The notes under the pieces are model-generated. The model was not told where the DNA came from. It did no database searches and saw only the letters and a list, made by a program, of their open reading frames with translations. DNA of 64,000 nucleotides from Flavobacteriia bacterium (GTDB taxonomy: Bacteria; Bacteroidota; Bacteroidia; Flavobacteriales_D; Crocinitomicaceae), in NCBI GenBank assembly GCA_947446925.1, contig CANFHU010000003.1, positions 62,001 to 126,000 on the forward strand, written 5' to 3'. Numbering within the stretch: the first letter of the stretch is position 1; each line of letters starts with the position of its first letter. Made by a program: the position numbers and the translations under genes. Below are positions 1,615 through 45,169 of the stretch, piece by piece.

Positions 1615-2676
1615 TTGAAATCAACTTCTGCTTTTTTTTTATTCCTATTTCACTTAATTTTTTGGGTAGCACTTTATTTAGTTCCTTTTGTCGATCCAAG
1701 GGGTATTCATTCTGTAGATAAAAGTCTTAACCCTAATTTCTTTTTTGACATTCATTTACTTATAAATCACGCTTTTTTTATTTTCGTCTTTTATTTTAAT
1801 AGCAATTATTTAATCCCTAAATTTTTAAAAAAGTCCAGAAAAATAGAATATACGATTATTCTTTTTCTTGTAGTTATTCTAATTCTAAGTTTATCTTATA
1901 TTATTTTTCCTTCATTACGATTACCTAATCCACCTATAGGTGCTCCAAGGTTACCAAGTATAAATGTACTTCGATTGAATCAAACGATTGCGTTAGCGAT
2001 ACCATTGTTGTTCGTGTTAATGGTAAGTACTACTTATCGAATTTTGAGAGATAAATTAGTACAGGATAAAATAAATAAGGAGAAAGAAACTGAAAGTTTA
2101 AAAACGGAACTCTCTTTTTTACGATCGCAAATCAGTCCGCATTTTATTTTTAATGCGTTAAATAGTAGTATCATTTTAGTTAGAAAACAATCTGATTTAG
2201 CAGAAAGTTGTTTACTTAAATTAGCTTCTTTATTACGTTATATGCTGTATGAAGCAGACGATGATAAGGTACTTATGGAGAACGAAATTCAATACATTTC
2301 GGATTATATTGATTTGCAAGGGATTCGCTTTGGAGAGAGTGTTGTTATTAAGAAGAACCTAGAAGTGGATGAATTACTAGATCAATATATTGAACCAATG
2401 CTTTTAATTCCATTTATCGAAAATGCTTTCAAACACGGCACTTCGGTTTTAAATAATCCTGAAATTCATATTTCTCTAGAAGAAAAACAGGGAGCATTAC
2501 TTTTGGAAGTGAAAAATAAATTTGTTACAACTGTCCGAGACAACAAAAATAATGGGATAGGATTAACAAATGTTGGAAGAAGATTAGAATTATTGTACCC
2601 AAATAAACATACTTTAAACCTTTCTATTGAAAAAGATTGGTATTTGGTATTTTTATCCATAGACCTTACAAAATGA
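1615..2676 (+). CDS. LytS/YehU-type sensor histidine kinase
   Basis: This is a membrane sensor kinase that would phosphorylate the LytTR regulator encoded next. Four hydrophobic segments lie at about residues 6-25, 44-62, 77-99 and 122-140, followed by a short coiled linker. The His_kinase (PF06580) block has SPHFIFNALN, with H176 as the likely phospho-acceptor. The ATPase part has the N-box PFIENAFKHG and the glycine-rich GIGLTNVGRR. The start is read as TTG at 1615: an in-frame TAG lies at 1603-1605, and the first internal ATG (about residue 136) would remove the whole membrane domain. TTG starts are uncommon in this phylum. The stop overlaps the regulator's start in ATGA, implying co-translation. 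Confidence 0.9.
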   Translation: MKSTSAFFLFLFHLIFWVALYLVPFVDPRGIHSVDKSLNPNFFFDIHLLINHAFFIFVFYFNSNYLIPKFLKKSRKIEYTIILFLVVILILSLSYIIFPSLRLPNPPIGAPRLPSINVLRLNQTIALAIPLLFVLMVSTTYRILRDKLVQDKINKEKETESLKTELSFLRSQISPHFIFNALNSSIILVRKQSDLAESCLLKLASLLRYMLYEADDDKVLMENEIQYISDYIDLQGIRFGESVVIKKNLEVDELLDQYIEPMLLIPFIENAFKHGTSVLNNPEIHISLEEKQGALLLEVKNKFVTTVRDNKNNGIGLTNVGRRLELLYPNKHTLNLSIEKDWYLVFLSIDLTK

Positions 2677-3401
2677 TTAAATGTATTTGTATTGATGATG
2701 AGCCTTTATCGCTCGAAATGATGGAAGAATTTATTCGTAAGGTTCCTTTTTTACAGTTTGTAACTGCTTGTAAAAATGCATTAGAAGCATATCAAGTACT
2801 AGATAATGATTCGATAGATTTGATTTTTGTAGATATTGAAATGCCTGAAATAAATGGGATACAATTTGTACAATCTTTGAAACAGAAGCCTTTCATTATT
2901 TTTTCTACCGCGTATAAAAAATACGCACTAGATGGTTTTGAATTGGATGTTATCGATTATTTGGTAAAGCCTTTTTCATTTGATCGATTTTATAAAAGCG
3001 TTATGAAAGTTAAGGAAGCGCATAATTTGATAAATAGTTCTACTCCAGCAATCTTAAAACAACTTCCTCCAGATTACATTTTTGTAAATTCTGATTACAG
3101 TTTAGTGAAGGTTAATATTCCTGATATTGCTTATATTGAAGGATTAAAGGATTACATTAAAATTTACTTATCTGCGAATGCTAAGCCTATAATTACCAGA
3201 ATGAGTATGAAATCGATGGAGGAACGTTTGGATTTATTAGGGTTTAAGCGTGTACATAAATCATTTATTGTGAATTTAAGTAAAATCACTTCGATTAAAA
3301 AAACACGATTAACCATTGAAGATACAGAGTTATTTATTGGAGATAGTTATAAAGTTCCTTTATATAAGTCATTGGGTTTAGATATTGCGGAGGAAGAATA
3401 A
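2673..3401 (+). CDS. LytTR-family response regulator
   Basis: The receiver domain (about residues 1-115) has the acidic pair D8/D9, phospho-acceptor D54 in FVDIEMP, a Ser/Thr switch in FSTAY and K99 in VKPF. A LytTR DNA-binding domain (about 140-235) follows, with YIEGLKDYIKI and the HKSFIVNL segment. The 242-residue length is typical. ATG at 2673 is chosen because it overlaps the kinase stop by four bases; the longer frame from TTG at 2637 adds residues not seen in this family. It probably controls nearby envelope genes. The seven-gene unit beginning 123 bases downstream is a natural candidate target, which is inference. Confidence 0.93.
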   Translation: MIKCICIDDEPLSLEMMEEFIRKVPFLQFVTACKNALEAYQVLDNDSIDLIFVDIEMPEINGIQFVQSLKQKPFIIFSTAYKKYALDGFELDVIDYLVKPFSFDRFYKSVMKVKEAHNLINSSTPAILKQLPPDYIFVNSDYSLVKVNIPDIAYIEGLKDYIKIYLSANAKPIITRMSMKSMEERLDLLGFKRVHKSFIVNLSKITSIKKTRLTIEDTELFIGDSYKVPLYKSLGLDIAEEE

Positions 3402-3451
3402 TTTTTGCGACGAAAAACACCTTTTCATATCTTTTTTCTGCCTTTACGTAT

Positions 3452-3483
3452 CTTTTATTTTTCAACAAAACTTTTATTTTTCA
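3452..3483 (+). repeat. Perfect 13-base direct repeat, candidate LytTR operator
   Basis: CTTTTATTTTTCA occurs at 3452-3464 and again at 3471-3483, a 19-base period close to two helical turns. LytTR proteins bind paired direct repeats roughly two turns apart upstream of a promoter. The second copy runs into CATCTTTG (3482-3489), one base from the Bacteroidota -7 consensus TAnnTTTG, about 35 bases before the ATG at 3525. The region is T-rich, so chance repetition is possible. Confidence 0.4.
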
Positions 3484-3524: not shown

Positions 3525-3770
3525 ATGAAAATACATTCAAATTTAGCAGTTAGCGATAGCGGGTTTATCTTTAACCCATCTAATGGAGATTCTTTTTCTA
3601 CGAATACAGTTGGAGCTGAACTTATTCGTTTATTGAAAGATGGAAAAAACTTAGCAGAGATAAAAAAAGAAATTATAGTTAAATACGAGGTTGAACCTAC
3701 CGTTTTTGAAAAAGATTACGAGGATTTTATTTCGCAGTTACAAGACCATTTTTTAGTAAGTAATGACTAA
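3525..3770 (+). CDS. PqqD-like RRE (peptide recognition) protein
   Basis: At 81 residues this has the size and pattern of the PqqD family: an N-terminal strand pair (AVSDSGFIFNP), then a turn leading into STNTVGAELIRLL, a helix AEIKKEI and a closing helix ending in DHFLV. PqqD-like RRE folds bind leader peptides and deliver them to modifying enzymes. It is the first gene of the unit, and its stop overlaps the start of the ATP-grasp gene (ATG at 3763). No classical short precursor peptide is visible nearby. However, the PLP enzyme two genes on starts with a leader-like YxxPxI motif, a possible docking partner. Family membership is confident; the partner is inferred. Confidence 0.8.
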   Translation: MKIHSNLAVSDSGFIFNPSNGDSFSTNTVGAELIRLLKDGKNLAEIKKEIIVKYEVEPTVFEKDYEDFISQLQDHFLVSND

Positions 3771-4818
3771 TTCAACGAAACGAAAAATTACAGTTGCAGT
3801 CACCGGATTAAATGCCGTTGATAGTCCTGGGCCAGGGGTAGCTGTAATACGTGGAATCCGAGATTGTGAAGATTTCGACGTTCGAATTATAGGGCTTTCC
3901 TATGAATCGTTAGAGCCCGGGATATACATGGAAGGGATTGCGGATAAAGTGTATCAAATTCCCTATCCTGCAGCAGGAACACAAACTTTATTAAGCAGAA
4001 TTGAATATATTCATGCCATTGAAAAAATAGATGTGATTATCCCAAATTTTGATGCTGAATTATATAATTTCATTAAAATTTCTCCACAACTCAAAGAATT
4101 AGGTATTGCAACGTTTCTCCCAACACATGAACAATTTGAGTCCAGAGATAAAGTGAACTTATTTAAATTTGGAGAAAAACATGGGTTTTTGATTCCGAAA
4201 GACAAAACTATTTATGATATAAGTGAACTGTCTGCAACAGCTAAAGAATTCGGTTATCCATTGGTTGTTAAAGGAAAATATTATGAGGCAACAGTCGCAT
4301 ATACGTTAGAACAAGCACAAAAGGCATTTCATAAATTGAATGCAAAATGGGGGCTCCCAATTATCATACAAGAGTTCATCTCTGGTACGGAGGTCAATAT
4401 TGCAGCATTAGGGGATGGGGAAGGAAATACAATTTCAGCCGTGCCAATGCGTAAATTGTTTATCACCGACAAAGGGAAAGCGTGGGCAGGAATTACACTG
4501 GAAGAACAGTCCTTAATTGATTTAGCTGAAAAATTCATTCATGCAACAAAATGGCGTGGTGGTTTTGAAATTGAAATCATGCGAACGCAAGATGGAAAAC
4601 CATATATCATGGAAGTTAATCCAAGATTTCCTGCCTGGATTTATTTAACGGTAGGAGCAGGACAAAATCAACCTGCATCATTAGTTAAATTAGCATTGGG
4701 TGAAAAAGTGGAAGCATTTACGAGTTATGCGGTAGGTAAATTATTTATTCGCTATGCGTGGGATTTAATTACAGATGTTTCTGAATTTCAAAAAATTTCA
4801 GCATTCGGAGAGCTCTAA
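3763..4818 (+). CDS. ATP-grasp carboxylate-amine ligase-like protein
   Basis: This resembles carbamoyl-phosphate-synthase-type ATP-grasp enzymes, which activate a carboxylate as an acyl phosphate and join it to an amine or thiol. A pre-ATP-grasp Rossmann part covers about residues 8-120. The ATP-grasp core shows the lysine in YPLVVKGK, an adenine-loop segment IIQEFISGTE, and metal ligands in FEIEI (about 268-272) and MEVNPRF (E284, N286). At 351 residues it is complete. The stretch VTGLNAVDSPGPGVAVIRGI is typical of a subgroup often annotated only as ATP-grasp protein. It overlaps the PqqD-like gene by eight bases and precedes the PLP enzyme. The substrate cannot be read from sequence. Confidence 0.85.
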   Translation: MTNSTKRKITVAVTGLNAVDSPGPGVAVIRGIRDCEDFDVRIIGLSYESLEPGIYMEGIADKVYQIPYPAAGTQTLLSRIEYIHAIEKIDVIIPNFDAELYNFIKISPQLKELGIATFLPTHEQFESRDKVNLFKFGEKHGFLIPKDKTIYDISELSATAKEFGYPLVVKGKYYEATVAYTLEQAQKAFHKLNAKWGLPIIIQEFISGTEVNIAALGDGEGNTISAVPMRKLFITDKGKAWAGITLEEQSLIDLAEKFIHATKWRGGFEIEIMRTQDGKPYIMEVNPRFPAWIYLTVGAGQNQPASLVKLALGEKVEAFTSYAVGKLFIRYAWDLITDVSEFQKISAFGEL

Positions 4819-4888
4819 ATTTATTTTCGAGTCTTATTAGGCAAAATAATTTAAAAAGAAGATTTAATAGAATATTAAAAAAAATACT

Positions 4889-6253
4889 ATGAGTACGGAA
4901 AAATTAAAATACGAACGTCCTGCAATTCGCAAAATGAATACAGGATTAATGAATAAATTTGGAACAAGAACAGAATATGCACCATTTACACATATTGATG
5001 GAGTTTCTGTTAAAGAATTAATTCATAAATATGGTTCTCCATGTTTTGTTTTATCGGAAAGAACCATCCGTAAAACCTATCAAAATGCGGTTAGAGCATT
5101 CAAAACACGTTATCCGAAAGTTCAGTTTGCATGGAGTTATAAAACAAACTATATTGATGCGGTATGTAATGTATTTCACCAAGAAGGTTCGTGGGCAGAA
5201 GTGGTTTCTATCTTCGAATACACAAAAGCAATTCAAAATGGGGTTCCAGGTAACAAAATTATTTTTAATGGTCCTGAAAAAACAAAAGCAGATTTACAAG
5301 TTGCATTAGAAAATAATTCCTACATACACATTGATCACTTTGATGAGTTATATGATCTAATCGAATTAACACAAGAATTGAAAAAAACGGCGAAAGTAGC
5401 GATTCGTGTAAATATGGATACTGGTGTTTATCCTATGTGGGATCGTTTTGGATTTAATTATGAGTCTGGTCAAGCGTGGAATGCAATTAATAAAATCATG
5501 GCTTCTGAGTATTTGGATATGGTTGGTTTACATTGCCATATAGGTACATTTATGTTAGATACGAATGCCTATGCTATTGCTGCAGCTAAATTGTCCGATC
5601 TTGCTTTAAATATTAAATATGTATTTAACAAAACAATTCAATATTTGGACTTAGGAGGTGGTTTTCCATCAGCGAATACATTAAGAGGTGCATATTTACC
5701 TGGACCAGACATGATTCCTTCTATCGATGATTTTGCAGAGGTGATCACGAGTACCATTTTAAATTATGGCTATAAAAAAGAAGATTTGCCTTTGTTGATT
5801 TTAGAAACAGGTAGAGCGATGATTGACGATGCTGGTTACTTACTTGGGAGTGTCATTGCTAACAAACGTCTTTCGGATGGAAGAAGAGCAACAATAATGG
5901 ATTTTGGAGTTAATATTTTGTTTACCGCATTCTGGTACGAACATAAAATTACGCCTGCGCAAGAATTCTCTTCACATACCGAAGATATGGTACTTTATGG
6001 ACCACTTTGTATGAATATTGATGTAGTTAGATCAAGTGTTACTCTGCCTGCATTAAATCGTGGAGATCATGTGGTTGTGCATAAAGTTGGAGCTTATAAT
6101 ATGACTCAATGGATGCAATTTATTGCTATGCGACCAAAAGTTACCTTGATTGATACAAATGGAGAATCACATATCATTCGTGAAAATGAGACGGTTAAAA
6201 CAATTACCGATCCTGAAAGAATGCCAGAACATCTAAAAACGTTTAATTTATAA
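4889..6253 (+). CDS. Fold-III PLP decarboxylase-like enzyme with leader-like N-terminus
   Basis: This belongs to the diaminopimelate/ornithine decarboxylase superfamily (alanine-racemase-like barrel plus C-terminal sandwich). The PLP lysine is K85 in SYKTNY. The barrel has HCHIG (215-219), the phosphate-binding GGGFP (256-260) and ETGR (306-309). The C-terminal domain has GPLC with C374 and a nearby D378, and GAYNM at 401-405, so catalytic residues are kept. Family members usually begin near the segment DGVSVKELIHKYGSP (about 37-51). Here about 30 extra residues precede it, with Y8-x-x-P11-x-I13, then G19 and NKFG at 22-25. That matches the YxxPx[LI] element of lasso-peptide leaders. The substrate is unknown; lysine biosynthesis (lysA) is unlikely given this neighbourhood. 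Confidence 0.85.
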   Translation: MSTEKLKYERPAIRKMNTGLMNKFGTRTEYAPFTHIDGVSVKELIHKYGSPCFVLSERTIRKTYQNAVRAFKTRYPKVQFAWSYKTNYIDAVCNVFHQEGSWAEVVSIFEYTKAIQNGVPGNKIIFNGPEKTKADLQVALENNSYIHIDHFDELYDLIELTQELKKTAKVAIRVNMDTGVYPMWDRFGFNYESGQAWNAINKIMASEYLDMVGLHCHIGTFMLDTNAYAIAAAKLSDLALNIKYVFNKTIQYLDLGGGFPSANTLRGAYLPGPDMIPSIDDFAEVITSTILNYGYKKEDLPLLILETGRAMIDDAGYLLGSVIANKRLSDGRRATIMDFGVNILFTAFWYEHKITPAQEFSSHTEDMVLYGPLCMNIDVVRSSVTLPALNRGDHVVVHKVGAYNMTQWMQFIAMRPKVTLIDTNGESHIIRENETVKTITDPERMPEHLKTFNL

Positions 6254-6262
6254 AATAGTCGA

Positions 6263-8485
6263 ATGAATAATTCGTTTGCTATAGGGAGAAAAGGGTTACT
6301 GTATAGTTTTGACACAATTGTTAATAGCTATGCAGTAGTCTTTTTTTCTAATAATCTTTGGTTCGGAATTTTATTATTTTTGGCTTCATTCGTCAATCCT
6401 TTAGCTGGATTTTGTGGGTTAATAGGTGTGGTAACTGCTAATGTTTTTTCCCATGTTATTGGATTAAATAGAGACCAAATACGCAAAGGCTATCATGGTT
6501 ATGACGCTATGTTGGTGTCGAGTGCAATTGCGCATTTTTACACGTTTAATGAAACGGTTTTATTAATCATTATTTGTGTTGGGATTTTAGCTACACTACT
6601 ATCGTTTTTAATTCATGGGATTTTACATAAGTATAATCTCCCATCTTTAAGTTTTCCTTTTTTAATCACCATTTGGATTGTTTTTAGCGCTTTTCCATCC
6701 ATGCACACGATGAAAGTGCATCCGGAACTAATTTATTCACTGAATGAAAATGTTAAATCAACCGGCTTTACGATTGCAAATTGGATGGAAACAATTGCAC
6801 AATTAGAAAGAAAATTATTAGCCTTTCCAAAAATTGTCGAGGTTTATTTAAAGTCGTTGTCCTCTTTGTTTTTTCAAACAAATAGTTTAGCAGGTTTGCT
6901 AATCGCTATCGGATTATTTATCTACTCGCGAATAGCTTTTAGTTTATCCATTATAGGATTTGTAGCTGCTTACTTTTTTTATCCCATTTTAGGTGGGGAT
7001 GTAAATGATTTTTACGAAAAATTTATTGGACTCAATTTTATTTTTCTTGCCATTGCAATTGGGGGAATCTATTTGGTACCGAGTTTTGCCAGTTATTTAA
7101 TGAGTATAATCCTCATGCCTTTGTTAATCATAGTCTTATTTGGATTGAATAGGATTTTGTTTATGCTTGGGTTAGCGCCATATTCTTTGCCTTTTACGTT
7201 GATAACCATTTTGTTCTTATATGTGTTGAATTATCGCGTAAAAGTTAATTTTCTGCATCGTGTACAATATCAAGCATTTAATCCGGAAAAAAATTTATAT
7301 AATTTTTTAAACGCAAATCATAGAATGCGTTTGTTTAATTATTTCCCAATTCACCTTCCATTCTGGGGAGAATGGATGGTATCTCAAGCGCATGATGGCA
7401 AAATTACCCATATTGGAGAATGGAGCAAAGCATTTGATTTTATTATTTTAGATAGTGAGTTGAAATCGTATCAAAATCCTGGCTATACGGTAGATGATTT
7501 TTATTGTTTTAATAAACCGGTCGTTGCTTGTGCAGATGGTTATGTAGCGACTGTCCTTGATAACGTAGAAGACAATGCCATACGTGGTAATAATACGTTG
7601 CAAAATTGGGGTAACACTATGGTTATATATCATGCAGATGGGTTATATAGTCAAGTTAGTCACTTAAAATTAGGATCGCTAAAATTTGCAGTTGGAGATT
7701 ATGTTAAAAAAGGGGAGATAATTGCTTATTGTGGAAATTCCGGACGATCCCCTGAACCACATATTCATTTTCAATTGCAGTCCTCGCCGATAATTGGTTC
7801 CAAAACACTTGATTTTCCATTAGCATACTATATTAAAAATGAGAATAATAAGTTTGTCTTTAAAACGTTTGCGAAACCTGCAGAAGGGGAAATGATTCAA
7901 GGGGTAGAAGTGAATAATTTACTCAAAACTGCTTTTGAATTAAATCCCGGATCCAAGTTTAGTTGGAAAATTAGCGAAACAGGAAAAACGGATACATGTC
8001 AAAATTGGGAAGTATTTACAGACAGTGAAAATGTTTCGTATATCTATTGCCATTCAACTAAAGCCTGTGCTTATTTTTACAACGATGGTAATCTTCTAGT
8101 TTTTACTAGTTTTTTCGGTACTAAAAATTCCTTACTGTATTATTTTTATTTAGCACACTATAAGGTTGTTTTGGGGTATTATCAAGATTTACAAATAGTT
8201 GAAAATTATCCTGTTGCTACGATTTCATTCAAAATTTTGAATGTTTTACAAGATTTTATCGCGCCATTTTATCGATTTGTATCTGCAACATTCAATTTAA
8301 AATATGCATGGATTGATGATGTTAATATTACTTCTGAGATCGGATTAGAATCCAGTGCTGAAATTAAAGTTTTGGGAATCCACTCAAAAGCATTTCAGTT
8401 TACCACAAAACTTTCGAATAACAAGATGAAAGAGTTTTATGTACATGCTAAAAACACTAAAATGATTGCCATATGCGAAAGTTGA
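6263..8485 (+). CDS. Urea-transporter / M23 peptidase-like fusion protein
   Basis: Residues 1-325 are a polytopic membrane domain of the urea transporter family. It has two halves, each with the family's LPxxTxPF-like signature: LPSLSFPF at about 126-133 and YSLPFTL at about 307-313. Residues about 365-510 form an M23/LytM-like domain with a glycine-rich core, GNSGRSPEPHIHF (H500, H502) and D392. The usual first zinc ligand of HxxxD is replaced by S388, so activity is doubtful or noncanonical. The last 230 residues match nothing I recognise. The gene lies ten bases after the PLP enzyme and overlaps the next gene by 13 bases. It may move urea or a related small amide and bind the wall; that function is inferred. 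Confidence 0.8.
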   Translation: MNNSFAIGRKGLLYSFDTIVNSYAVVFFSNNLWFGILLFLASFVNPLAGFCGLIGVVTANVFSHVIGLNRDQIRKGYHGYDAMLVSSAIAHFYTFNETVLLIIICVGILATLLSFLIHGILHKYNLPSLSFPFLITIWIVFSAFPSMHTMKVHPELIYSLNENVKSTGFTIANWMETIAQLERKLLAFPKIVEVYLKSLSSLFFQTNSLAGLLIAIGLFIYSRIAFSLSIIGFVAAYFFYPILGGDVNDFYEKFIGLNFIFLAIAIGGIYLVPSFASYLMSIILMPLLIIVLFGLNRILFMLGLAPYSLPFTLITILFLYVLNYRVKVNFLHRVQYQAFNPEKNLYNFLNANHRMRLFNYFPIHLPFWGEWMVSQAHDGKITHIGEWSKAFDFIILDSELKSYQNPGYTVDDFYCFNKPVVACADGYVATVLDNVEDNAIRGNNTLQNWGNTMVIYHADGLYSQVSHLKLGSLKFAVGDYVKKGEIIAYCGNSGRSPEPHIHFQLQSSPIIGSKTLDFPLAYYIKNENNKFVFKTFAKPAEGEMIQGVEVNNLLKTAFELNPGSKFSWKISETGKTDTCQNWEVFTDSENVSYIYCHSTKACAYFYNDGNLLVFTSFFGTKNSLLYYFYLAHYKVVLGYYQDLQIVENYPVATISFKILNVLQDFIAPFYRFVSATFNLKYAWIDDVNITSEIGLESSAEIKVLGIHSKAFQFTTKLSNNKMKEFYVHAKNTKMIAICES

Positions 8486-9846
8486 TATTCGTTTTTTGTT
8501 TCTTTAGTTGTATTACTATAGGATGGTCGCAAAGTCAACGGAAGTTGAAAGAATCGTTTGTAGATAGTGCTTCATATGTCTATTTTACACAAGGTAAACA
8601 TGATGCATTAGTAGTATTGACAGACAAAGCTTTATCTTCAGGAATAGATTCCTATTACCTTCGTGTACGAATAGGAGTGTCCTATTTTACGAAAAATGAA
8701 TTTTATCTCGCTGTAATTCATCTGCGTAAGGCCATTGCTTTTTATCCTTCAGATATGTATGCAAAAGATTTTTTATTCTATGCTTATTTATACACTGGAA
8801 ATTTGGAGGAAGCGAAATTATTGATTGTAAAAATGCCAACAACGTATCAGGTTGCATATCGAAAGTTAATAGTAAATCAAAATTCCTTTGCATTTGAATC
8901 TGGTTTTCAAACAACAAATTATGCTAATTCGCAAGATACTTCCGTGTTTTTAGCAAAAGATGTTTCAGATACATCACTACATGGAAATGCCATTTATGCC
9001 GAATCTGATCGAATGAAATCCATTCAATACGCACAGATCGGAATGGGTTATCCTATTTCCAACAGAATAAAGGGTTATTCAGGTGTTTCAATGGTGAAAA
9101 ATAATCGTGAACAACATATTTACGCGCGAGAAAATTTGGTTAAAGATACTTCTAACGTATATGCTTTAACACAATATCAGGTGTACACTGGCCTAACGAT
9201 AACAATGCCAAAACATGTGAATCTTTTAGTAGGTGGTCAATATATGTATTACGCGCAAGATAAATTGTACGCAAATTACGATACGATAACTTGGAAATAT
9301 AGTTATCAAGACAGCAAAACCACTAGAAATAATTTTGTTTCAAACTTTTCGCTAACCAAATCTTTCCAGAAGTTGATCCCAATGGTAAGTATTGGCGTAA
9401 ATAGAATTGATGGATTAACAATGATGCAATATGCATCTCAAATTAGTTATTTACCTTTCGGAAATTTCAAATTTGCAGTTACCGGTGGATTTTCCCTTTC
9501 AAAAGAGAATAATGCAGCTAGAAAAGTATATTTTGCAAAGTTAACTGGAAAAATAACGGATTATTTATGGTATGACACGTATTTTTATGCTGGAAATTTA
9601 AAGAATTTAACCGAAGGAAATGCGTATGTGGTGTATAATATTTCCGATAAAATAACCTTGAAATCTGGGTTTAATCTAACCTATTATTTCAACCAAAAAA
9701 TAAGTCTTGCTTGTCGTTATGATCTACTAAAACGGGAGTCTTCTTATTATCGCTATTACACTACGTTTAAAGCAACTGAAACAAAAATGTACGCAGATAA
9801 GTATATTAATAATTCATTTATTTTAAGTTTGTTATGGAAATTCTAA
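8473..9846 (+). CDS. TPR plus outer-membrane beta-barrel protein (YaiO-like)
   Basis: A signal peptide (MRKLIFVFCFF to about WSQ) precedes a short TPR-like helical region (about residues 30-130, with YYLRVRIGVSYF and a YPSDMYAKD repeat). The remainder (about 150-457) alternates short amphipathic strands with many Tyr/Asn/Lys residues and ends in SLLWKF. A terminal phenylalanine is typical of barrels inserted by BamA. The architecture resembles YaiO-family proteins. It overlaps the upstream fusion gene by 13 bases and the downstream TPR gene by 13, so translation is coupled. It could be the outer-membrane exit or receptor of the unit, which is inference. Confidence 0.75.
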   Translation: MRKLIFVFCFFSCITIGWSQSQRKLKESFVDSASYVYFTQGKHDALVVLTDKALSSGIDSYYLRVRIGVSYFTKNEFYLAVIHLRKAIAFYPSDMYAKDFLFYAYLYTGNLEEAKLLIVKMPTTYQVAYRKLIVNQNSFAFESGFQTTNYANSQDTSVFLAKDVSDTSLHGNAIYAESDRMKSIQYAQIGMGYPISNRIKGYSGVSMVKNNREQHIYARENLVKDTSNVYALTQYQVYTGLTITMPKHVNLLVGGQYMYYAQDKLYANYDTITWKYSYQDSKTTRNNFVSNFSLTKSFQKLIPMVSIGVNRIDGLTMMQYASQISYLPFGNFKFAVTGGFSLSKENNAARKVYFAKLTGKITDYLWYDTYFYAGNLKNLTEGNAYVVYNISDKITLKSGFNLTYYFNQKISLACRYDLLKRESSYYRYYTTFKATETKMYADKYINNSFILSLLWKF

Positions 9847-10454
9847 AGAGGAGAATCGTTGTTGTTTTCACTTTTTTGACTTTGTCTTTAAGTCTGCTTT
9901 CACAATCAGATGTTGCGGTAAGAGAAGCGTTAAAAAAGAGTTATGATTCAGAATATCAATTAAAATATCAAAAAGCAATCGAGGATTTACAGAGTGTTTA
10001 TGAACCAACTAGTTATGAATTAAACCTTCGAATAGGTTGGTTAAGTTATAAAGTTGGAAAATATACAGAATCTGTAACGTATTATAAAAAAGCAATTGCG
10101 AAAATGCCGCTAAGTATTGAAGCAAAATTAGGAATTGTATATCCACTTGGTGCACTTGAAAAATGGGAACTAGTGGTGGATAATTACCTATCGATCGTGA
10201 AAATTGATACCTACAATGCAACTGCAAATTATCGTCTTGCTTTAATCTATTATAATCGTGGAGATTATGGTAATTCGTGGAAGTATCTACAAAAATATAT
10301 AAATCTGTATCCATTTGACTACGATGGCAATAGTTTAGCTGGATGGGTAAAATATAGTGTTGGTAAAAAAGAAGAAGCGTATGTGTTTTTTAAAAAAGCA
10401 CTAATGATTAATCCATACGATACAAGTTTTAATAAAGTGCTAGGAATAAAGTAA
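9834..10454 (+). CDS. Secreted TPR protein, first of two paralogues
   Basis: This 206-residue protein has an N-terminal signal sequence (hydrophobic VVVFTFLTLSLSLLS) and then about four TPR units. Recognisable pieces are LKYQKAIEDL, RIGWLSYKVGKYTESVTYYKKAI, NYRLALIYYNRGDY and LAGWVKYSVGKKEEAYVFFKKAL. It most likely acts in the periplasm as a protein-protein adaptor. It starts inside the end of the barrel gene and lies 25 bases before a close paralogue of identical length. No enzymatic domain is present, and the partner is unknown. Confidence 0.8.
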   Translation: MEILKRRIVVVFTFLTLSLSLLSQSDVAVREALKKSYDSEYQLKYQKAIEDLQSVYEPTSYELNLRIGWLSYKVGKYTESVTYYKKAIAKMPLSIEAKLGIVYPLGALEKWELVVDNYLSIVKIDTYNATANYRLALIYYNRGDYGNSWKYLQKYINLYPFDYDGNSLAGWVKYSVGKKEEAYVFFKKALMINPYDTSFNKVLGIK

Positions 10455-10479
10455 ATAATAAAATAAAAAATCAATAATT

Positions 10480-11100
10480 ATGAAAAATCGTTTAATAAAA
10501 TTCATGTCTTTAGGGTTGTTTTCACTAACATCCATTTTTTCTTTTTCTCAAAATGAAATTGAATTAAGAAGTGCCTTTAAACAAAGTTATGTCGATGAAT
10601 ATAACTTAAAATATGCAAAAGCAATTGAAGATTTAACTCCTTTTGCAAATGTAAATACGTATGAAGTGCATGTTCGTTTAGCTTGGTTAAATTATTGTAA
10701 TTTGAAATTTAATGATGCTGCTATACATTATAAAAAAGCAGTTGAACTCGCTCCCAAAAGTCTAGAAGCAAGAATGGGATATATTTATACATTAGCTTCT
10801 TTAGAAAAATGGGATTTGGTTATTGACCAATACAAGGTAATTATTGGGATTGATCCAACTCATGCTTTAGCAAATTACAATCTTGCTTTAATCTATTATA
10901 ATAGAGCGGATTATAAATCTGCCTTGCCTTATATTTCGACGTACATAAATTGCTATCCATTTAATTTTGATGGTGTAAATCTTGCAGGCTGGATTAAATT
11001 TAATTTAGGGAATAAAGATGAGGCAATTTCGTATTTCAAAAAAGCCTTACTATTAAGTCCAGACGAAAAAAAATATGACACAATCTTAAAAGTTAAATAA
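10480..11100 (+). CDS. Secreted TPR protein, second of two paralogues
   Basis: This is also 206 residues and collinear with its upstream neighbour: signal peptide, then the shared LKYAKAIEDL, an LAWLNYCNLKFNDAAIHYKKAVE repeat, NLALIYYNRADY and a GWIKFNLGNKDEAISYFKKAL repeat. The identity is plain by eye and indicates tandem duplication. It is the last gene of the unit; a strong terminator follows 20 bases after the stop. The two copies may form a heterodimer or bind different partners, which is inference. Confidence 0.8.
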   Translation: MKNRLIKFMSLGLFSLTSIFSFSQNEIELRSAFKQSYVDEYNLKYAKAIEDLTPFANVNTYEVHVRLAWLNYCNLKFNDAAIHYKKAVELAPKSLEARMGYIYTLASLEKWDLVIDQYKVIIGIDPTHALANYNLALIYYNRADYKSALPYISTYINCYPFNFDGVNLAGWIKFNLGNKDEAISYFKKALLLSPDEKKYDTILKVK

Positions 11101-11120
11101 TTTTATTTTATCATTTTTTA

Positions 11121-11146
11121 AATGCCCATCAACGATGGGCATTTTT
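11121..11146 (+). terminator. Rho-independent terminator closing the seven-gene unit
   Basis: AATGCCCATC (11121-11130) and GATGGGCATT (11134-11143) form a ten-pair stem around AAC, followed by TTT. It marks the 3' end of the transcript from the PqqD-like gene to the second TPR gene. Confidence 0.85.
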
Positions 11147-41361: not shown

Positions 41362-42414
41362 TTATTCCATGCTATATATTTGTTGTCCATTCCAATAAGT
41401 GGCATTCGAATAAATTGCATTATATTCATTTCCTTTGATTATTGGTGTTTCCAAGATTGTGAAGTTTGCATTTTTACCTTTTTCAAGTGTACCATTCTTT
41501 TTTTCTGAAAATGATAAATATTGTGCCCAATTTGTAATAGATTTTAGTGTTTTCAATAATTCCATTTGATTCAATTTCGAATAATTGGATAGTTTTTCTA
41601 GTAATTTATCTGATGATTGACTTGTCCCAAAGAGATAAATTGGTAGTGTCTTTTTATTTGTTTCGTTAAAACAAAGAAAAAAATTGTTCTCTTCAAGTAG
41701 AGTTAAGGTTTTTGGTGCGGTTTCACGGATGTTAAAAACAAACCATCGATGGTCTAATTTATAGTTTTGAAGTGACTGTATAATCAAAGGGATGTTTTTT
41801 TGTCCATTGTGAAAGTCTATTCCGATTTGTAAAGAATTACTTTTCGCGACAGCGCATGCCTCTAAAACGGTTGACTCATTTTCATTGGCTATAGTGAATC
41901 CTGCGAAAATTAAATTTTTAAATTTTCGTATCTTTTTTATTTTTCTTATATGATTGATATTTTCTTTTGAAGGGGTTAAATAGACATGCCATTTTACTTG
42001 CATATAAGGGCCGAATTTTTCAAGTTCAAGGAGTTTTTTAAAGGTTATTCCATGAATAAAAACTTCTACAATACCTTGTTCTAATTCTTGTGTTTCTATT
42101 TCTTCTAGTAGGCTGTTGCTCCATTTTTCGACTGTATCGATTTGTAAATTACAATCAGAAAATGTTGGTATAATTTCTCGTCCTTCCACATCTATGGACT
42201 CTTCCGAACGGTATTTGTTTAATATTTGTCGTTCCGGACCGATTTCAACAATTTTCCCATTTGAAATTGCCATCGCCTCACCTGTTGTGTTGTTGTCATT
42301 TAAACAATAGATCGATGCATTATGAATGATTTGATCTACCTTTTTTCCTTTCATACAACTGTATAAAAAGGGGATAAGAAAAATAAATAGATAGTTGGTT
42401 TTAATTGTTTTCAT
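41362..42414 (-). CDS. Shortened amidohydrolase-like lipoprotein lacking the metal-binding His pair
   Basis: The N-terminus (FLIPFLYSC, C20) is a lipoprotein signal. Residues 27-85 follow the amidohydrolase/YtcJ beta-sandwich: ASIYCLNDN, GEAMAISNGKIVEIG, and the C-terminal GTLEKGKNANFTIL is the matching last sandwich piece. Between these, the PGFxDxHxH catalytic entry reads PTFSDCNLQ, so only D87 of the metal set survives. YtcJ-type enzymes are usually well over 500 residues, but this has 350. It is probably a non-catalytic relative. It overlaps the upstream membrane protein gene by 14 bases. Confidence 0.65.
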   Translation of the reverse strand: MKTIKTNYLFIFLIPFLYSCMKGKKVDQIIHNASIYCLNDNNTTGEAMAISNGKIVEIGPERQILNKYRSEESIDVEGREIIPTFSDCNLQIDTVEKWSNSLLEEIETQELEQGIVEVFIHGITFKKLLELEKFGPYMQVKWHVYLTPSKENINHIRKIKKIRKFKNLIFAGFTIANENESTVLEACAVAKSNSLQIGIDFHNGQKNIPLIIQSLQNYKLDHRWFVFNIRETAPKTLTLLEENNFFLCFNETNKKTLPIYLFGTSQSSDKLLEKLSNYSKLNQMELLKTLKSITNWAQYLSFSEKKNGTLEKGKNANFTILETPIIKGNEYNAIYSNATYWNGQQIYSME

Positions 42415-43729
42415 TCAAGATATTATTAAATGTTTTTTTTATTTTTTCAAAGTCTATACAAAGTAATAGAATACTAAAACTAAATGGTAAAAATGGGATT
42501 TTATATCTTACAATAGCTCCAAGTACAGGCACTGTCCAGCCAATTAGGATTGCCAATAAAATGCTAAAGTAGATTCCGAAATAAATATAGGGTAGTTGAA
42601 TTTTAGTTGGTTTTTTGAAAAATAAAATCATAAGAATGAATAATACTAGTATACATAAATTTTCCAACGCTGAAAAAGCAAAAAATAAGTTTTTAATTTC
42701 AAATATAGTTGGTCGAAATAGTCCATTTATGAATGCATCTGGCATCGTTTTTACAAATGACCAAGTAGAATTATTAAGCGCTTTTACATGTATTGTACTA
42801 CCTGCTTTTGTGTAATGAGCGACATTTATAAAATCTTTTTGTTTGTATTTTAAATCTGCAATAAAATCTAATCGTGGATTTATTTTACCGGCATTAAATC
42901 CAAAAAGTATTAATGCGGTATTGATTGTAAGAAAAATAACACCTACTTTTTTTGTTCGGATGTAATAAGTCAATATCCATGAAAAGATGCTTGGAATAAA
43001 CAAGATGAGTACATAGGTTTTTGTAATTGCTAAAAGACCTAGGGTTACTAAAACAATAGTTAAATTTAAGATCTTATTTTTTGCATCTAATAACTGATTA
43101 AAAGCAAATAAGAATAGACCAATACCAAATAATAAAATACTTTCTTTTAATACGCCTGACCCCCAAAATAAAACAGATGGAATAAGAAAACAAGCGATTA
43201 TCAATTCTGTTTTTCGGTTGCTAAATTTTTCATGATAAACTCTAAAAATACCTGTTAAACCTATAAAAGATAGCATGCATAAAATTAATGTATGAATATG
43301 ATAATATCCGAACGAAAAAAGATATATTACCGCATTAAATCGAATGACTGTTCGATTGTCGTTGAAAATATTACTCGTAAATGGTTTAAACCAATAGTTT
43401 GTTTTTACTAATAATGCGTGAATTTCATTAGTTTCATTCTGTATCCCAAAAATTATTTTCCAGAATTGTAAAGGAGAATTTTTGTATACCTTTTCATAAA
43501 GGTATTTTGCATCATCGAAATATTTAAAAATATCAGCAGTTTTTCTATCTGGATAATAATAGGTGTAAACATAGTAAATACCAAAGCCAAAGAGGAACTT
43601 AACGGTTAATAATCTACTTAGTGTTTTGAAAGTGATGCCGGAATTTTTAAAAAAAGCCCATTTTTTTAACACTAATAATAGCATCAAATAATAGAATGTG
43701 ATACAGGAAAATTCTAAAAAAAAATGCAT
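42401..43729 (-). CDS. Polytopic membrane protein, second of twin paralogues
   Basis: The 442-residue protein has about ten hydrophobic segments. Shared landmarks with its upstream twin are YYVYTYYYPDRKTADIFKYFDDAKYL near residues 50-80, FWGSGVLKES, a TKTYVL segment and a final VPVLGAIVRYKIPFLP. The last resembles the loop of glycosyltransferase-39/oligosaccharide-polymerase-like membrane proteins but is not diagnostic. It starts directly after the twin's stop. An envelope polysaccharide role is a guess from topology. Confidence 0.65.
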   Translation of the reverse strand: MHFFLEFSCITFYYLMLLLVLKKWAFFKNSGITFKTLSRLLTVKFLFGFGIYYVYTYYYPDRKTADIFKYFDDAKYLYEKVYKNSPLQFWKIIFGIQNETNEIHALLVKTNYWFKPFTSNIFNDNRTVIRFNAVIYLFSFGYYHIHTLILCMLSFIGLTGIFRVYHEKFSNRKTELIIACFLIPSVLFWGSGVLKESILLFGIGLFLFAFNQLLDAKNKILNLTIVLVTLGLLAITKTYVLILFIPSIFSWILTYYIRTKKVGVIFLTINTALILFGFNAGKINPRLDFIADLKYKQKDFINVAHYTKAGSTIHVKALNNSTWSFVKTMPDAFINGLFRPTIFEIKNLFFAFSALENLCILVLFILMILFFKKPTKIQLPYIYFGIYFSILLAILIGWTVPVLGAIVRYKIPFLPFSFSILLLCIDFEKIKKTFNNILNENN

Positions 43730-45169
43730 TTATATTTTTCTAAAATTGGGGTTTTTAAATTTATTTTTCTTTATAAAAGAATATAGTTTTGATTTGTCTA
43801 TTAGTGTTAATAAACAAAAATAAAATAAAGGTAATAAAGGAGCTTTGTATCGGACTAGATTCCCTAAAACAGGGACTAATAAACCTAAAAAAATAAATGT
43901 GAGAACGATGAATGTACCAAAATAAAAAATAAGTATTTGTTCATCTCTATTAAGTTTCCTTGGGAAAATAAACAAACATAAAATAAGTAATAAGCACATA
44001 AAATTTTCGAGTGCAGGTAAGATGAATAGAAGTGATTTTGTTTCAAATAAATGTGGTCGCGCAAACCCATTACTTATCCCAAACGGAATAGAAATAAAGA
44101 AATTGGATAATTGTCCGTCCATTTTTTTTGTAAAAACTAAACTTTTAGCATTTGCTAATTTAGCTTCATGTTTATAGTCTGCTTGTTTGAATCTCAACAT
44201 TTCGAGAATATTGTAATTATTACCTAATACATTTTTTTCATAAGAAATGTGATTGACTCTTTTGTATTCTTTTCTTTTTTCTTCCTCCGTTTTATTTTTA
44301 AGATTATAAACTACAGGATTATGCGTATAACTCCACGTTATAAAAAACACGATAATTAGAACATACGAACTGATGAAAAATAGTTTTATATGTGCATTTT
44401 TTAAAATCTGTATGATAGCGAAGCAACCAACCGAAGGCAGTATAAATCCAAATATATAAGTTTTTGATATTGAAAGTATTAACAGACTTGTGAGTAAGCC
44501 AATTACAAGATAAATGTTTCTTTTTTGAATTAATTTTGTGGTAAAATAAACAACTAATGAAAGTGCAAAGAGGATAATAGTTTCTTTGAGTAATCCAGTC
44601 GTCCACAAAGCAATAGATGGAGAAAGAAACAGTATAAAAAAATAGAATTTTTTCCATTCTAAATACGGTGATAACATTTTGTAAAGTGTAAAAGTTGCCA
44701 GAAATGAGATTAAACTCATATATAAATTAGCAATTAATAGATTGTTATTTGAAATTAGATTGAGTAAACTTGATAAAATAATAATTGTTTGGTTGTCATT
44801 ATAAATCCCATAGGAATTTGGTTTTGTCCAAAATTTAAGGCTCTCGAATAATTTTATATTTTCTGTATTATCTATTTTTTCACCTTGAATAACGGAGAAA
44901 AAATCGGATGCGTTATTTTTAAATATTTCTGCTAATTCTTTTCCATCCTGAAAATATTTATAGATATCGTTCACGGATTTATCTTTATAAAAATAGGTGT
45001 AGATATACCAGAGTGCAAAACCTGAAAATAACTTAATAAAAAAAGCATAACTGATATAGATACTTGATATCTGCTCTAATTTAAAGCGTTTATTTTTAAA
45101 GATAAAAAACAAAAAAAAGATGGCAACAAAAAGAAAAGTGATGTATTCCACAAACTTGAATTTTTTCAA
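43730..45169 (-). CDS. Polytopic membrane protein, first of twin paralogues
   Basis: This 479-residue protein has about ten hydrophobic segments and matches the following gene in order: WYIYTYFYKDKSVNDIYKYFQDGKEL, LWTTGLLKET, SKTYIFGFI and a VPVLGNLVRYKAPLLP segment. The shared Asp-x-x-x-Tyr-Phe and GLLKE features may be functional. The two genes abut without a gap. I cannot assign a family beyond membrane glycosyltransferase- or polymerase-like topology. Confidence 0.65.
   Translation of the reverse strand: MKKFKFVEYITFLFVAIFFLFFIFKNKRFKLEQISSIYISYAFFIKLFSGFALWYIYTYFYKDKSVNDIYKYFQDGKELAEIFKNNASDFFSVIQGEKIDNTENIKLFESLKFWTKPNSYGIYNDNQTIIILSSLLNLISNNNLLIANLYMSLISFLATFTLYKMLSPYLEWKKFYFFILFLSPSIALWTTGLLKETIILFALSLVVYFTTKLIQKRNIYLVIGLLTSLLILSISKTYIFGFILPSVGCFAIIQILKNAHIKLFFISSYVLIIVFFITWSYTHNPVVYNLKNKTEEEKRKEYKRVNHISYEKNVLGNNYNILEMLRFKQADYKHEAKLANAKSLVFTKKMDGQLSNFFISIPFGISNGFARPHLFETKSLLFILPALENFMCLLLILCLFIFPRKLNRDEQILIFYFGTFIVLTFIFLGLLVPVLGNLVRYKAPLLPLFYFCLLTLIDKSKLYSFIKKNKFKNPNFRKI

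Follow-up and report, generated by a model that had tools for sequence, protein, structure and literature searches.

What does a compact operon do that places an RRE-fold protein, an ATP-grasp ligase, a PLP decarboxylase and a urea-transporter-like membrane fusion side by side? In the window, the whole 64,000-nucleotide stretch of Crocinitomicaceae DNA analysed here, seven + strand open reading frames (ORFs) at 3525–11100 were confirmed by ORF listing. The initial annotation had read them as one transcript and inferred an amino-acid- or peptide-derived product that is made and then exported or sensed at the envelope. We examined the unit, its relatives across the Bacteroidota and the folds and catalytic residues of its proteins.

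A conserved operon and its probable regulators

The unit opens with A (3525–3770, 81 aa), a PqqD-like protein of the RRE fold (Pfam PqqD, 2e-10), and B (3763–4818, 351 aa), an ATP-grasp ligase recognised by domain and profile matches and invariant catalytic residues. C (4889–6253, 454 aa) is an AR-fold (type III) PLP decarboxylase (FslC, 1.4e-70), and D (6263–8485, 740 aa) is a fusion of a urea-transporter (UT, 3e-55) fold, an M23/LytM fold (M23, 5e-14) and a LolA-like domain, with an AlphaFold2 mean pLDDT of 91.4. It is followed by E (8473–9846, 457 aa), in which the sequence and a weak TPR match indicate a signal peptide, TPR repeats and a barrel-like domain; by F (9834–10454, 206 aa), an exported TPR protein (TPR_2, 7e-13); and by G (10480–11100, 206 aa), a tandem duplicate of F (44% identity, 5e-67). 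Neighbouring ORFs overlap by 8–13 bases or are separated by gaps of 70, 9 and 25 bases. An intrinsic terminator on the + strand (11120–11144), whose stem-loop has 11 pairs and is followed by a T tail, closes the unit; no other + strand site in the region resembles a terminator. The earlier domain calls were borne out, as was the single transcript-like unit, with seven same-strand genes, no gap above 70 bases and a strong terminator at the end. The count of seven needs adjustment: all seven genes are present, but the core is six, because G duplicates F and occurs mainly in the closest relatives.

Directly upstream, on the same strand, lie V (1615–2676), a LytS-type histidine kinase (His_kinase PF06580, Pfam 5.8e-22) that is likely the cognate sensor, and U (2637–3401), a response regulator with Response_reg and LytTR domains. 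Homologues of V are found ahead of the cassette in several relatives, and at 13 of 48 loci a same-strand LytTR regulator sits no more than 4.4 kb upstream. The promoter region contains direct repeats 21 bases apart (CCTTTTCATATCTTTT / CCTTTACGTATCTTTT, 3420–3456) in a stretch conserved in most of six relatives; they are a candidate LytTR-binding site. This two-component system (1615–3401), just outside the seven genes, is the likely regulator of the cassette. Further upstream, 26–1552, truncated at the left window edge, encodes a PorE-like OmpA-domain protein (type IX secretion), homologues of which precede the cassette in the closest relatives. Elsewhere in the window, two adjoining and apparently paralogous multi-pass membrane proteins of 442 and 479 aa are encoded on the minus strand at 42401–45169.

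A gene-order survey had been named beforehand as the test that could overturn the claim of a functional unit; when it was run, co-conservation was found and the claim survived. Searching with the 740-aa fusion recovered full-length relatives of D in 34 of 395 Bacteroidota genomes, and an independent search with C returned, at its cut-off, exactly this set of 34 among the 395. These genomes span 27 genera and about 16 families, and the co-occurrence of D and C is highly significant if relatedness is ignored (Fisher 7e-50 across 395 genomes). A, B, C and D lie in this order on one strand in all 33 neighbourhoods read, with a TPR protein downstream in nearly all, and the order in relatives is PqqD, ATP-grasp, decarboxylase, UT-M23, barrel, TPR. 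In a scan of species genomes the best 80 loci were all from Bacteroidota, Ignavibacteria included. Among these 80, A, B and C directly precede D at 48 of the 57 loci with enough upstream flank, and a TPR protein follows at all 59 with enough downstream flank, E being found at 54 of them. Loci without a recognisable counterpart of the window's E usually have a different barrel-like protein, about 275 aa long, downstream. Conservation of the cassette spans the phylum Bacteroidota and goes well beyond what chance would give.

Two further genes recur beside the cassette. Several Bacteroidales-type loci have an IF-2B / ribose-1,5-bisphosphate isomerase-like gene between C and D (L103:8030-8947, L110:7998-8906, L125:8017-8964, L151:8150-8983), and in Ignavibacteria-type loci a secreted protein with an FlgD-like C-terminal tail often stands directly before A (L032:13671-14525, L061:5123-6199, L064:5517-6362).

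A ligase–decarboxylase module and its replacement

The best solved match to A is TbiB1, a lasso-peptide RRE protein. In B, the catalytic residues K170, E271, E284, N286 and R288 are invariant in 32 homologues. The IucA/IucC synthetase of NIS siderophore clusters is absent from the seven genes and the next gene.

The closest solved relative of C is N-citrylornithine decarboxylase (FslC/FigC; 7kh2, 5.5e-89). Ranked by profile score, FslC (302 bits) comes before DapDC (about 231 bits), D-ODC and BtrK, and all of these lie far above ODC (80 bits) and ADC. The PLP lysine, the PLP-stacking His, the Gly loop and the catalytic Cys expected of AR-fold clade-2 (polyamine-unrelated) decarboxylases are all in place: K85, H217, G256, C374, D378 and Y403 are invariant in 32 homologues, and the residue after the catalytic Cys is an invariant Met375, as in FigC. 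We mapped published specificity determinants onto C (PMC7857480). C lacks the acidic residue that would recognise a free side-chain amine, the DapDC Arg position is also lost, and the citrate contacts of FigC, H357 and R387, are replaced by Ile377 and Gln407 in 32 of 32 homologues; Trp349, Trp184 and Ile377 are invariant. The lack of residues for either a free side-chain amine or citrate suggests a substrate with a capped, uncharged side chain. The clade in which C appears to fall has been described as taking conjugated amino acids as substrates in specialised metabolism, the likely role of those of its enzymes that are neither DapDC nor D-ODC (PMC7857480).

A, B and C move together as a block. 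They do not adjoin D at nine loci of the 57, and a tenth (L091) has a flank too short to count; we checked the whole genomes of all ten for A, B and C. At two (L106 and L112) the A-B-C block is intact but elsewhere in the genome. Seven genomes with D lack A and C (L104, L108, L114, L115, L133, L091 and L140), and these carry instead an ATP-grasp protein of family NF005096 and a fold-type-I Orn/Lys/Arg-type decarboxylase that is non-homologous to C. The pair adjoins D in six of the seven and is not adjacent in one; the background frequency of NF005096 is 6 in 395 phylum genomes. One 1.9-Mb genome (L087) has neither the A-B-C block nor the replacement pair.

Because the replacement pair is found with D, two unrelated decarboxylases and two ATP-grasp proteins occupy the same slot, and the ligase and decarboxylase genes resemble an interchangeable module that supplies an envelope module which itself stays constant. 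The five replaced-module D proteins present in the D tree form one clade, so the replacement was probably one event, later inherited, and the statistics overstate its independence. The relocated A-B-C block at L193:7793-16001 lies beside a CRISPR-looking array with cas genes, judged from a repeated peptide pattern and nearby ORFs.

The NF005096 pair also occurs in genomes without D, beside Aminotran_3, CN_hydrolase, AAT and Aldedh domains. At L185–L190 a D-less operon encodes an aminotransferase, a carbon-nitrogen hydrolase, an Orn/Lys/Arg-type decarboxylase, NF005096, an acyltransferase-like protein and an aldehyde dehydrogenase, with a VOC-like protein in some. We take it to resemble a gamma-glutamyl-putrescine (Puu) style route to an amide-capped amine, and it looks like an undescribed amine-conjugate pathway.

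The proposed envelope module

D had been described as a fusion of a urea transporter and a wall-peptidase-like domain. Both folds are present, and the C-terminal 200 or so residues form a third domain that had been missed. In the AlphaFold2 model, the first 350 residues (6263–7315) form a complete UT fold (Z 36–37 to UT-B and dvUT), followed by an M23/LytM fold (7328–7882; Z about 14) and a tentative LolA/LolB-like half-barrel (7883–8482; best Foldseek match 2e-4, Z about 8–9). Modelled alone, the third domain has a pLDDT of 92.5 and a pTM of 0.88, and LolA-type entries dominate its top Foldseek matches, which are weak, with a Z of only about 8.

The functional labels are less secure than the folds. 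In dvUT, Q24 and E187 are the polar urea-contact residues at two pore sites. The position aligned with E187 (201 in D) is Ala, Ser, Leu or Gly in nearly all of 95 D sequences, and that aligned with Q24 (25 in D) is occupied by Gln in 64 of the 95, the window protein having Val there; with the two urea-coordinating positions largely lost, 'urea transporter' is best kept as the name of a fold. The pore is narrow and uncharged, for which a charged diamine conjugate would be an odd cargo. In the M23 domain, H383, D392, H467, H500 and H502 are invariant in the 95 sequences, retaining the HxH (H500, H502) and the second catalytic His (H467). The canonical HxxxD motif is absent: position 388 is Lys, Arg or Ser, and the invariant His stands at 383 instead. 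The wall-peptidase label is uncertain, given the altered HxxxD and an ambiguous membrane side, even with the fold, the HxH and the catalytic His retained.

That ambiguity has two sources: UT homology places both termini of D inside the cell, whereas the M23 and LolA-like folds suggest the outside. With loop sides assigned from known UT topology, the positive-inside rule found charged loops on both sides of the UT part. Cysteines 415, 490 and 596 are conserved but show no co-variation, and so offer no disulfide evidence for a periplasmic site. An apparent separation of UT and M23 into two genes at L039 was rejected as a real split, as the frames join as PEKTFTFF/LNNKTRF and there is no signal peptide; it looks like a frameshift and tells nothing about the membrane side of M23. 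A motif search left most standalone M23 relatives unrecovered.

E, F and G have signal peptides recognisable by eye, and the sequence pattern of the barrel domain of E suggests an outer-membrane type. F is present at nearly all loci, and G was found mainly in the closest relatives.

Proposed function and comparison with known systems

From the unit, its conservation, the modular replacement, the folds and the catalytic residues, we infer a reaction order, a product class, a direction of transport and a mode of regulation. The reading we favour, tentatively and at somewhat below an even chance, is that the cassette synthesizes an amide-capped diamine and then handles it across the envelope. In the cytoplasm, A, B and C would make a small specialised molecule: B would link the side-chain amine of a basic amino acid of ornithine or lysine type to a carboxylic or amino acid, C would then decarboxylate the conjugate to the amide-capped diamine, bypassing the free diamine, and A may help to bind the substrate or a partner. 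D, E and F, together with G, the copy of F, would carry the product across the envelope. The UT-fold part of D would be the route through the inner membrane, the M23/LytM and LolA-like domains of D may bind or process the molecule or the wall, and the exported TPR proteins and E could form the outer-membrane end, with the upstream LytTR system controlling the cassette. One product, rhizoferrin, is reached by two routes, with or without free putrescine (PMC7857480). By analogy, the usual form of the cassette would ligate and then decarboxylate, and the replaced form would decarboxylate and then ligate, both yielding an amide-capped diamine. The initial proposal, of an amino-acid-derived molecule that the unit would make and then export or sense at the envelope, is compatible with this evidence.

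Other readings deserve weight. A match of C to lysA at 1.4e-63, in a genome with no lysA above the curated cut-off and a second-best match that is arginine-decarboxylase-like, could make C the diaminopimelate decarboxylase of this genome and the operon housekeeping. We disfavour this and regard it as highly improbable: C scores 214.9 against a LysA cut-off of 297.9 bits and has not kept the DapDC specificity residues, a separate strong lysA is present in 29 of 34 cassette genomes, which also speaks against C as the LysA of the phylum, and one genome of the same family (G041) and one of the same order (G045) have no strong lysA match and yet lack C too. A salvage function, in which M23 cuts wall peptides, the UT part imports them and B and C remodel DAP- or lysine-containing pieces, would make use of the M23 fold with its conserved HxH, His and Asp, the outer-membrane barrel and TPR proteins, and the kinship of C with DAP decarboxylases. 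It appears unlikely given the altered zinc motif, HxxxD, and the absence from C of both an acidic residue beside the Cys and the DapDC Arg position, and it has no need for a biosynthetic ATP-grasp ligase.

The RRE fold of A and its lasso-peptide match invite a RiPP-type reading, hinted at in the initial annotation, in which PqqD brings a precursor to the ligase and decarboxylase, with maturation and export of the peptide left to D; ATP-grasp enzymes do occur in RiPP clusters. The fold stands, but neither the spaces between operon genes nor the 123-base upstream gap has room for a precursor gene, relatives are spaced equally tightly, and A is absent from the clade with the replaced module, which leaves this reading quite unlikely, though a precursor might be encoded at a distant site. 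Rather doubtful, too, is a stress or signalling unit in which lipid, wall or protein of the envelope is modified with an amine, so altering the surface, and no molecule is released. LytTR control and the hydrophobic ligand suggested by the LolA-like domain would suit it, and a link of envelope stress with ATP-grasp ligases and polyamine genes is described in other bacteria (PMC11237479); no transferase domain was recognised, however, and the LolA-like match is weak.

A bolder reading is conceivable, though we would not count on it: a new small-molecule secretion system in which D, the TPR proteins and the barrel form a two-membrane conduit for an amide-capped diamine, fed by either ligase–decarboxylase module, one of which avoids the free diamine. 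The cassette is intact in 9% of the sampled phylum genomes, with perfect co-inheritance and a module swap, and such conservation implies one definable job, seemingly never described. The cassette would put the urea-transporter fold to a new use and extend the specificities of decarboxylases by one, and it may also reveal an envelope route not seen before and a metabolite or surface modification that is both new and widespread. A literature search, mostly of non-subscription papers, returned no description of this gene combination, in line with the earlier statement that no described pathway has it. Each component by itself has, or resembles, a known fold; neither their combination nor the three-domain fusion seems to have been described.

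Among known systems, UT/SLC14 proteins and dvUT share the whole fold of the first domain of D (Z about 37), but D is fused to two soluble domains and its urea-contact positions are replaced. DipM, Csd2, EnvC and lysostaphin resemble it in the LytM/M23 fold, the HxH and the other catalytic His, whereas in D the HxxxD first ligand is missing and the domain is attached to a membrane channel fold. Glutathionylspermidine-synthetase-like ATP-grasp operons linked to PspA likewise combine an ATP-grasp enzyme and polyamine genes with envelope partners (PMC11237479); the cassette has other membrane partners, no PspA and a different decarboxylase. In Francisella rhizoferrin synthesis by FslA/FslC (FigA/FigC), an acid is ligated to ornithine before decarboxylation by an AR-fold clade-2 enzyme (PMC7857480), and C is nearest to FslC. 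The cassette differs in having an ATP-grasp enzyme in place of the NIS synthetase, no citrate-binding residues and a different envelope module. In butirosin synthesis, BtrJ is the ATP-grasp ligase of the side-chain module. Its partner BtrK is an AR-fold decarboxylase that acts on a bound amino acid (PMC7857480). The cassette shares this pairing, with a PqqD-like protein instead of an acyl carrier protein, and has no aminoglycoside genes.
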